Part shown: piece by piece, positions 30,876 to 51,886 of the stretch
How positions within the stretch are numbered: the stretch's first letter is position 1
How the letters are laid out: the number at the start of each line of letters is the position of its first letter
Assembly: GCF_017592555.1 (NCBI RefSeq)
Contig: NZ_JAGFNS010000019.1
Location: forward strand, 124,001-188,000
Direction of reading: 5' to 3'
DNA: 64,000 nt
From: Actinoplanes flavus
GTDB lineage: Bacteria > Actinomycetota > Actinomycetes > Mycobacteriales > Micromonosporaceae
Made by a program: the position numbers and the translations under genes
The notes under the pieces: model-generated
What the model was told of the DNA's origin: nothing
The model's input: the letters and a program-made list of their open reading frames with translations, nothing else
Databases searched by the model: none

Positions 30876-30911
30876 GGTACGGGGGACGAGCGCGCGCTCG
30901 TCCCCCGTACC
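30876..30911. terminator. Strong bidirectional terminator hairpin
   Basis: A perfect 17-bp stem with a 2-bp turn (GGTACGGGGGACGAGCG and its exact complement) separates the convergent SRPBCC and glycosyltransferase genes. There is no T-run. Confidence 0.8.
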
Positions 30912-49030: not shown

Positions 49031-49822
49031 ATGGAGACCATCGCGGCGATCAGTGACTACTACGAGCGGGGCGGGGAGGTGGGCCGGCTGCGGGCCGGCC
49101 GCGGCCGGCTGGAGTTCCTGCGTACCCAGGAGGTTTTGAGGAGGCTGCTGCCGCCCGCCCCGGCACGCGTGCTCGACGTCGGCGGCGGCGCCGGAGCCCA
49201 CGCCCGCTGGCTGGCCGCCGACGGGCATCAGGTGCGGCTGGTGGATCCGATGCCGTTGCACGTCCAGCACGCCGGCGCGATCGACGGAGTCGACGCCGTC
49301 CTCGGCGACGCCCGCCGCCTCGCCGAGCCGGACGCCGCCTACCAGGCCACGCTGCTGCTCGGGCCGCTCTATCACCTGCCCGACCGCCGGGACCGGGTGA
49401 CGGCGCTGCGCGAGGCGGCCCGGGTCACGGCGCCCGGTGGCATCGTCGCCGCGGCGACGATCAGCCGGTATGCCGGGCTCTACGACACCCTGGTCCGGGG
49501 CCGCTACATCGAGCCGGAGGTCCGCCGGATCACCGACGAGGAGGTCGTCACCGGCGTGCACCACCCCTTCGACCAGGATCTTTTCACCCTCGCCTATTTC
49601 CATCACCCCGACGAGATCGTGGACGAGTTCGCCGAGGCCGGGCTGACCCGGGCGTCGAGGTACGCGCTGGAGGGCGGAGCCTGGCTGTTCGCCGACCGGG
49701 ACGGCTGGCTCGAGGGCGACGAGCGCACGGCCGCGTTGCTGGACGCCCTCCGCTCCGTCGAACAGGAACCCAGCCTGTTCGGCATCAGCTCCCACCTGCT
49801 GACCGTGTCGGTCGTCCGGTGA
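49031..49822 (+). CDS. Class I SAM-dependent methyltransferase
   Basis: A 263-residue protein: ISDYYERGGEVGRL, then VLDVGGGAGAHARWLA (SAM glycine loop), VRLVDPMPLHVQ, LLLGPLYHLPDRRDRVTALREAARVTAPGGIVAAATIS. The conserved GPLYHL is shared with many small-molecule methyltransferases. Substrate unknown. ATG 49031 is used; GTG 49013 in the same frame is possible. Confidence 0.85.
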   Translation: METIAAISDYYERGGEVGRLRAGRGRLEFLRTQEVLRRLLPPAPARVLDVGGGAGAHARWLAADGHQVRLVDPMPLHVQHAGAIDGVDAVLGDARRLAEPDAAYQATLLLGPLYHLPDRRDRVTALREAARVTAPGGIVAAATISRYAGLYDTLVRGRYIEPEVRRITDEEVVTGVHHPFDQDLFTLAYFHHPDEIVDEFAEAGLTRASRYALEGGAWLFADRDGWLEGDERTAALLDALRSVEQEPSLFGISSHLLTVSVVR

Positions 49823-50194: not shown

Positions 50195-50569
50195 TCATGA
50201 CCGCTCAGCAGGTGGAGTGGAACAGACCTCCCACCGGCCGCGTCCCGGCCAGCTCGTTGTAGATCCGGACCGCCTCGGTGGTCTCCGCCTCGTGCACGGT
50301 GACGCCCGGTCCCGTAGCGCCCGCAGGGTGGCCGGATCGATCTGGAGCACCAGGTCCATGCCACGGGACAGCACCACCGTGGTGGCGCCGTGCTCCAGCA
50401 GCTCCTCGACGTCGGCGGGCTGGATGCCGGGGCTGTGCCGGGTGCCGGTCTCGGTCCAGTCCCAGGGCCGGCCGCCGCCGGGCCAGAGTTTGAAGTCCTT
50501 GCCGGGCGGCAGGCCCTCGACCGTCATCTCGCCCCACGACACCGACGTGATCCGCGGCGATTCCGCCAT
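50195..50569 (-). pseudogene. Mth938-like domain protein, frameshifted
   Basis: ATG 50569 (AGGAGGAG upstream) starts a good Mth938-type protein (SWGEMTVEGLPPGKDFKLWP, PWDWTETGTRHSPGIQPADVEELL, TTVVLSRGMDLVLQ, ATLRALRDR). After that the frame turns to Arg/Pro-rich nonsense and stops at 50195. The expected C-terminus, GVTVHEAETTEAVRIYNELA ending in GLFHSTC, is in the -1 frame and ends at 50205. Adding one G in the run at 50303-50307 (GACCGGGCGTC should be GACCGGGGCGTC) restores a standard-length gene of about 120 codons. This is either a sequencing error in a G-run or a real mutation. Confidence 0.75.
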
Positions 50570-50607
50570 CGCTCCTCCTCGACTCACCGGCCGACGATAG
50601 CCTGCTA

Positions 50608-50631
50608 CTTTATTTCGCATGCGAAATAAAG
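50608..50631. promoter_or_regulatory. Perfect 24-bp palindrome over a start codon, probable MarR operator
   Basis: CTTTATTTCGCA and TGCGAAATAAAG are exact reverse complements in direct contact. The ATG of the hydrolase gene (50619-50621) lies at the centre. TACTTT at 50605-50610 is a -10 element 8 nt before the ATG and overlaps the palindrome. MarR dimers bind such sites, and a marR gene is the second gene of the operon. Confidence 0.8.
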
Positions 50632-51473
50632 ACGTCAGGATCGGGGAGATCACCGGTACGTGGTGGGAGCCGGACGAGGAACCCACGGCGGTGCTGGTGG
50701 TGCACCCGGCGACGGCGACGCCGGCCGGGTTCTACCGGGCGTTCGCGGAGTTCCTGGTGGAGAACCGGATCGCCGTGGTCACCTACGACTACCGGGGCAC
50801 CGGGCGCTCCGGGTCGCCGCGCGAGCACCCGGGTCTGGGTATGCGCGACTGGATCGAGCACGACGTGCCGGCGGTGACCGCCTGGGCGCGGGAGCGGTTC
50901 CCGGGGCTGCCGCAGCTCGCCGTCGGGCACAGCATCGGCGGGCACGCCCTGGCGCTCGGGCACGGCGGACCGGAGCTGACCGCGTTCGCGCTGGTCGCCG
51001 CGCATGTGGCGACCATCCGGGCGATTCCGGGCCGGGTCGAGCGGATGCGCGTACGCCTGGTGTTGAATCTTCTCGGTCCGGCGCTCGGCGCCGTGCTCGG
51101 CTATGTCCCGGCCCGCCGGATGGGTCTGGGCGAGGACATCCCGGTGGCCGCGGTCCGGCAGTGGGGCGGCTGGGGCCGCCTGCCGGGCTATCTGTTCGAC
51201 GATCCGGCGATGCGGGCGGCGGAGCGGGCCGCCGCGGTGACGCAGCCGGTGCTGATGATCGGGCTCAGCGACGACCCGTGGGCGACGCCGGAGCAGGTCG
51301 ACGCGCTCGCCGCCCGGCTGACCGGCGCCCGGGTGGAGCGCCGCACCTGGACCCCGGCCGACGCGGGCGTCCCGCACGTCGGTCACCATGGGTTCATGCG
51401 GCGCACCGTTCGTGACACTCTCTGGCCCGACCTGCTGACGTGGTTCCAGAAGCGGATGGCGGACGTGGCCTGA
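50619..51473 (+). CDS. Alpha/beta hydrolase
   Basis: A 284-residue serine hydrolase: TYDYRGTGRSGSPREHPG (strand with DYRG), nucleophile Ser in VGHSIGGHALALGHGG, acid in IGLSDDPWATPEQ and His in GHHGFM. The start lies within a perfect palindrome with no ribosome site, so translation is probably leaderless. The TGATG overlap at 51473 links it to the marR gene. The likely substrate is an ester; relatives include lysophospholipase-like proteins. Confidence 0.86.
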   Translation: MRNKDVRIGEITGTWWEPDEEPTAVLVVHPATATPAGFYRAFAEFLVENRIAVVTYDYRGTGRSGSPREHPGLGMRDWIEHDVPAVTAWARERFPGLPQLAVGHSIGGHALALGHGGPELTAFALVAAHVATIRAIPGRVERMRVRLVLNLLGPALGAVLGYVPARRMGLGEDIPVAAVRQWGGWGRLPGYLFDDPAMRAAERAAAVTQPVLMIGLSDDPWATPEQVDALAARLTGARVERRTWTPADAGVPHVGHHGFMRRTVRDTLWPDLLTWFQKRMADVA

Positions 51474-51886
51474 TGGCACACCGGCTGGTGTTCGACCTGT
51501 TGACGGCCGAGCGCTCGGTCCGTCGCTGGATCGACGCCCGGTCCGGCGACAGCGGCATCGGGGCGGCCGGGGCCGGGGTGCTGTTCCATCTGGCCGCCCA
51601 CGGTGACGCGCTGATCGGCGACGTGGGCGCCGCCCTGGGCGCGTCGCCGTCCGGGGTGAGCGGTCTGGTCAGCCGGCTGGAGAAGGGCGGCTTCGTGGCC
51701 AAGGCGCCGGACGCCGGCGACGCCCGCGCGGTGCGGCTGACCCTGACCCCGCTGGGCCGGCAGGCGGTGGGGGCGGCCCGCGAGGTGGTGGCCGAGCTGA
51801 ACGCGGAGCTGACCGACGGATTCACGGCCGCCGAACTCGACGTGGTCGCCCGCTGGCTGGGACGAACGACACAGCGCCTGAGTTGA
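51473..51886 (+). CDS. MarR family regulator
   Basis: A 137-residue winged-helix protein: GVLFHLAAHGDALIGDVGAALGASPSGVSGLVSRLEKGGFV is the HTH and DAGDARAVRLTLTPLGRQAV the wing with the conserved DxRxxxLxLTxxG. Its start overlaps the hydrolase stop. It probably represses the operon through the palindrome at 50608-50631; ligand unknown. Confidence 0.88.
   Translation: MAHRLVFDLLTAERSVRRWIDARSGDSGIGAAGAGVLFHLAAHGDALIGDVGAALGASPSGVSGLVSRLEKGGFVAKAPDAGDARAVRLTLTPLGRQAVGAAREVVAELNAELTDGFTAAELDVVARWLGRTTQRLS

Follow-up and report, generated by a model that had tools for sequence, protein, structure and literature searches.

The window, as we call the whole 64,000-nucleotide stretch of Actinoplanes flavus DNA analysed here, carries an alpha/beta hydrolase gene followed by a marR gene on the same strand, with a palindrome on the start codon of the former and a divergent DUF498/Mth938-like gene beside it. 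The features of the locus are as follows:

50195..50569, minus strand: DUF498/Mth938-like gene, divergent, adjoining the proposed operator (Pfam DUF498, 30.0 bits, below the cut-off of 33)
50606..50611, plus strand: TACTTT, proposed -10 hexamer (TANNNT), 7 nt before the ATG, from comparative spacing
50608..50631, no strand: 24-bp perfect palindrome, proposed MarR operator, axis between 50619 and 50620, from its sequence and its conservation on the ATG
50619..51473, plus strand: alpha/beta hydrolase gene, 284 aa (Pfam Hydrolase_4, E 1.4e-13; orthologues in 25 of 67 genus genomes)
51473..51886, plus strand: marR gene, 137 aa from the ATG at 51473, proposed repressor (Pfam MarR_2, E 1.7e-11)

The stop codon of the hydrolase gene overlaps the ATG of marR in TGATG (51471-51475), which bears out the initial annotation in placing marR second in the operon. 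MarR family regulators bind close to a promoter, at a palindrome of about 16-20 bp, and control their own operon until a ligand relieves this; the gene order and the overlap appear compatible with such an autoregulated operon. The MarR protein also matched Pfam MarR (E 5e-06), and its AlphaFold2 model (mean pLDDT 90.8), in which the recognition helix spans residues 59-71, matched structures of MarR, AbfR, MepR, PefR and MftR in Foldseek (E 1e-6 to 3e-7), including DNA complexes of AbfR (5hlg), MepR (4lln), PefR (7dvv) and MftR (8ylg). The product of the second gene thus has the winged helix-turn-helix domain and the modelled fold of the MarR family.

The DUF498/Mth938-like gene is frameshifted relative to an intact homologue in another orthologous locus, L003 (frame comparison), by either a true mutation or a sequencing error. 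This divergent neighbour is missing or more distant in other orthologous loci, and its link to the operator is not conserved.

The palindrome and the predicted leaderless start

The perfect 24-bp palindrome at 50608-50631, CTTTATTTCGCATGCGAAATAAAG, is centred on the hydrolase ATG. Its arms, CTTTATTTCGCA at 50608-50619 and TGCGAAATAAAG at 50620-50631, are 12 nt each and 100% complementary with a spacer of 0 nt, exactly as first described (two exact 12-bp arms meeting at the ATG); the ATG occupies 50619-50621, which puts the axis of symmetry between the first two letters of the codon, A and T. In the window (GC 73%), two perfect palindromes have arms of at least 12 nt: this one and a GC-rich 36-mer. 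The expected number under an iid model is 0.038, and such arms arose in 4 of 60 random 64-kb sequences drawn from a first-order Markov model of the window. Taken alone, the palindrome is thus only moderately unlikely by chance; that it sits on the ATG and is conserved among relatives makes it more than chance. The earlier statement that it is unlikely by chance holds on these two grounds and was too strong for the palindrome by itself. A scan of the same genome with TTTCGCATGCGAAA, allowing up to 2 mismatches, found this single place (the reversed pattern gave 2 matches on each strand), and no wider regulon was seen in the genome at that threshold.

Two other palindromes were observed in the window. 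The 36-mer, GGTACGGGGGACGAGCGCGCGCTCGTCCCCCGTACC, at 30876-30911, is perfect and lies between convergent ORF ends (30861 and 30916), where it resembles a bidirectional terminator hairpin lacking a T run. A perfect 20-bp palindrome, ATCGTCGCCGCGGCGACGAT, is found at 49442-49461 within a predicted ORF.

The hexamer TACTTT was noted in the initial annotation at 50605-50610; it is present, one base further to the right. A TANNNT hexamer stands 6-7 nt ahead of the ATG in 45 of 50 loci bearing the site (the marR-less locus L088 included) and is missing at that distance in the other 5, while by inspection no good -35 element was seen for the hydrolase promoter. A -10 element at this distance leaves no space for an untranslated region, so that the hydrolase mRNA would be leaderless, as had been claimed from this sequence before, with its +1 predicted at the start codon and hence at the operator dyad. 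For Actinoplanes sp. SE50/110, 1179 start sites are reported to be leaderless, and the -10 motif is given as TAnnnT (PMC7682106). A leaderless hydrolase start is therefore ordinary, and the unusual part of the hydrolase-marR operon is the operator dyad placed on it.

Conservation of the site with and without marR

A hydrolase search of 67 genus genomes gave some match at E 0.001 in 53 and a close orthologue, defined by E below 1e-70 (next best match 1e-12), in 25. Exactly these 25 genomes carry the site, with the core CGCATGCG at the hydrolase start in every locus and a marR homologue downstream in every locus (about 0.45 kb off in L024); the site is retained even where the locus has an assembly gap (L025) or a frameshifted hydrolase gene (L026). 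The neighbours of the locus differ, as rhaM and an NDH-like gene lie beside L002-L014 and not beside L015-L025, and the site is the same in both groups.

A pattern scan of 354 family genomes with TCGCATGCGAAMTA matched 28, namely the 25 genus genomes and 3 others, and the reversed pattern matched 4 of the 354. The match in G338, from another genus, lies beside the same hydrolase-marR pair and is a true case; the matches in G093 and G134, with no hydrolase or marR homologue nearby, look like chance. Within the genus genomes the hydrolase locus alone matched, except for extra sites in G054 and G062. The former (locus L013) has a second copy, AGTTCGCATGCGAACT, 30 nt upstream of the site on the hydrolase ATG, perhaps a tandem operator. 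In the latter (L064), a second site, TCGCATGCGAACTA, lies away from the hydrolase at G062:C1:2156472-2156485 and is a possible extra target. A narrower pattern, requiring TT before and AMTA after the core, matched the genome of the window alone among 394 class genomes; as this pattern is demanding and the class thinly sampled, the result does not contradict the wider comparison that follows.

Of 94 relatives in a scan of named genomes, 80 were kept. Once 13 genus repeats and all loci from outside the actinobacteria had been taken out, and those of the genus and of G338 put in, there were 61 distinct homologues from Actinoplanes, Isoptericola, Cellulosimicrobium, Krasilnikoviella, Brevibacterium, Arthrobacter, Myceligenerans, Stackebrandtia, Galactobacter, Kocuria and others; the proteobacterial and Eremiobacterota loci of the 80 were handled apart or unused. 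The initial annotation had proposed a search for the same palindrome near marR orthologues. In this set TCG[C/T]ATGCGAA lies on the ATG in all 49 actinobacterial loci with marR downstream, vs 1 of the 12 without it. In 47 of the 49 the palindrome's ATG reads in frame and without a stop into the aligned hydrolase region, which begins 0 to 300 nt further on; the other 2 are broken copies. A search of the rest of the 12 MarR-less genomes gave no MarR orthologue, the best matches being generic (E 1.3e-4 to 7e-9; positive controls for the search gave 3e-34 and 2e-76). The single marR-less locus with the site, L088 from Brevibacterium yomogidense, keeps CTTCGCATGCGAAG on its ATG in a genome in which no MarR orthologue was found, through either a recent loss or another binder.

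Two further family searches gave matches in 8 of 121 and 34 of 60 genomes, from which 39 loci were taken and 13 dropped as repeats. The merged tree has 84 rows without repeats, leaving out L025 and L026 (broken genes) and L090 (internal stop in the hydrolase). Where marR is present, 47 of 48 rows have the site, the remaining one (L167) having one core mismatch; where marR is absent, the site is found in 1 of 36 rows and in none of the other 35. Site and marR thus agree in 82 of the 84 rows. Fisher tests gave p values of 2e-9 (61 loci) and 2e-21 (84 rows), both of which ignore relatedness. The tree holds only three well-supported independent pairs, two changing in the expected direction and one unchanged (sign test p 0.5), so once corrected for relatedness the independent losses are too few for significance.

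Constraint on the bases themselves is visible in the first codons. The second codon is CGA in all 47 loci examined, whereas within these genes CGA accounts for 49 of 1080 arginine codons. Codon 3 is AAT, ACT or AGT in 46 of 47, and beyond these first codons the hydrolase residues differ in both sequence and length. On the non-coding side, the left arm hardly varies up to position 5 (2 loci differ at position 2). The arms pair at position 6 in 42 of 49 loci and at position 7 in 30 of 49, and symmetry past position 6 is often poor. Left and right co-vary at position 7 (permutation p 0.007, uncorrected for relatedness), no other tested position reaching p below 0.05. In two Arthrobacter hydrolases, L104 and L107, long variable insertions were observed in frame between the palindrome ATG and the conserved domain, the one in L107 with GPDNSG-like repeats.

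Relatives without marR keep the promoter. TANNNT stands 6-7 nt before the start codon in 10 of 10 such loci, with starts picked by eye (10 of the 12 entered this check, as L093 has no clear start and L088 was counted as site-bearing), and in 24 of 25 MarR-less Brevibacterium loci, with starts picked by the presence of TANNNT. Since the spacing is kept mostly without the palindrome, the palindrome tracks MarR and not translation, and promoter spacing does not seem to depend on it. Within these Brevibacterium loci (L169-L193) a different inverted repeat, TTGTGCTCATgACGAGCACAA, is centred on the start codon in 5 of 25 (L173, L176, L177, L179 and L182), with weaker forms in L178 and L180; by eye, no regulator gene was seen beside L173 or L177.

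A betaproteobacterial counterpart and the recognition helix

Homologous hydrolase-marR genes in the same order, with a dyad 7 nt after the -10 as here, are found in Massilia, Duganella and Alcaligenes-type loci. All 25 of these loci with marR carry a GTTAACacGTTAAC-type palindrome (4 with one mismatch), and TANNNT ends 7 nt before its central dinucleotide in 24 of the 25. The geometry of -10, 7 nt and dyad is therefore common to both groups, but the betaproteobacterial core is GTTAACACGTTAAC, its inner eight bases being AACACGTT where the actinobacterial ones, which contain the ATG, are CGCATGCG, and the first in-frame ATG or GTG comes 11-27 nt downstream of the dyad. The outer half-sites can be identical, as with TTAGTT...AACTAA in Actinoplanes L016 and several Massilia loci.

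When the 49 actinobacterial and 25 betaproteobacterial MarR proteins were aligned, there were five columns at which each group was more than 85% conserved, but for a different residue. Of these, four fall at the start of the recognition helix: Ser58/Ala, Gly61/Ala, Ser63/Thr and Gly64/Asn (window numbering). The enrichment has p 3e-5 for 8 columns and 4e-4 for 14, computed after seeing the result.

The proposed operator and its alternatives

The palindrome is very probably the binding site of a MarR-type repressor. We consider it highly likely, from the comparative evidence, that the hydrolase and marR form a self-repressing leaderless operon in which the MarR operator dyad coincides with the +1 and the start codon. 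A MarR dimer would bind symmetrically about the A-T step of the hydrolase start codon, the predicted +1, and would cover the last part of the -10 hexamer together with the start site and the opening codons, thereby blocking RNA polymerase and shutting off both genes; a ligand, perhaps the substrate or product of the hydrolase, may then release it. Operator symmetry and protein start would share their bases because the mRNA has no leader. That a bound repressor would cover the -10, the start site and the start codon had been suggested at the outset, and the co-occurrence of site and marR, the promoter spacing and the recognition-helix differences support it.

It is very unlikely that the palindrome serves translation or RNA structure, as a start-codon context or a leaderless-mRNA hairpin, with no protein binding the DNA. 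Its exact position on the start codon would suit such a role, as would the ATGCGA kept in one MarR-less Kocuria (L135); yet the left arm, which would lie outside a leaderless mRNA, is conserved, and MarR-less relatives keep TANNNT at 6-7 nt while the palindrome is missing in 35 of their 36 tree rows. An RNA hairpin or translation signal was rejected on this left-arm conservation and palindrome loss. The site might instead belong to another regulator or to the divergent DUF498 gene, marR being a mere neighbour, since the divergent start is about 40 bp away in the window and one MarR-less species retains the site. We find this quite improbable, as the upstream neighbours differ between the two locus groups of the genus and the hydrolase, marR and site are constant, site and marR agree so widely in the tree, and lineages with different cores also differ in the recognition helix; ownership by the DUF498 gene was rejected because that neighbour is not constant across the genus loci.

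MarR might also bind as proposed and activate, or mainly roadblock elongation, instead of excluding RNA polymerase. A dyad on the +1 leaves much of the upstream promoter free, and some MarR proteins are reported as activators, for example SAV4189 (indirect). The left arm, however, overlaps the -10, described as the usual place of steric exclusion by MarR proteins (PMC5401885), and we regard activation or roadblocking as unlikely. A chance palindrome has a negligible probability: long arms did arise in a few of the random sequences, but its presence on the ATG in all 49 actinobacterial marR loci refutes this.

The repressor so proposed resembles, in part, systems described before. CrtR of Corynebacterium glutamicum, a local autoregulator, shares the MarR fold, a neighbouring target gene, an apparently single operator and a palindrome near the promoter; its motif is reported 25-28 bp upstream of a transcription start site from which it is a further 114 nt to the start codon (PMC5401885), well ahead of that codon, whereas here the start codon, with the predicted +1, holds the dyad. 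AcuR of Rhodobacter sphaeroides is a self-encoded repressor of the leaderless acuR-acuI-dddL operon, whose mRNA starts at the AUG (PMC3017554), an arrangement predicted likewise here. AcuR, as described there, is of the TetR family and encoded by the first gene, with an inverted-repeat operator upstream of the ATG, in contrast to the MarR fold, second gene and dyad on the ATG found here, which set this operon outside the AcuR type. The nreAXY operon of Mesorhizobium is reported as leaderless and repressed by its own NreA through a dyad operator (PMC12724321), again as predicted here, but NreA is a CsoR/RcnR family protein and its operator lies between the -35 and the -10, not over the start codon. 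In the open-licence papers searched, we recognised no description of the hydrolase-marR operon or its operators and did not find GTTAACACGTTAAC; TTCGCATGCGAA occurred in one paper, on the factor NRF1. Leaderless self-repressing operons and MarR autorepressors are thus already known, and here the dyad, the +1 and the start codon look fused.

Many actinobacteria share this layout, in which a handful of bases seems to be at once the target of a repressor and the beginning of a protein. Tentatively, and with more doubt than confidence, we suggest that leaderless genes may hold recurrent "start-codon operators", where the start codon itself forms the repressor dyad, whose symmetry dictates the first residues (M-R-N/T/S), the shared geometry of -10, 7 nt and dyad at +1 having been refitted to a central ATG along with a change in the MarR recognition helix. 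That some Brevibacterium hydrolase genes lacking a marR neighbour carry TTGTGCTCATGACGAGCACAA on their start codon hints that such a refit happened more than once.

For an uncharacterised MarR-hydrolase pair, the operator is hereby predicted and the start codon fixed. The operon seems to offer a compact natural example, kept across several actinobacterial families, of an operator that coincides with both the transcription start and the start codon. Since a leadered betaproteobacterial counterpart and MarR-less relatives are available for comparison, the co-evolution of repressor and operator becomes directly testable, as does the cost of a DNA-binding site inside a coding start.
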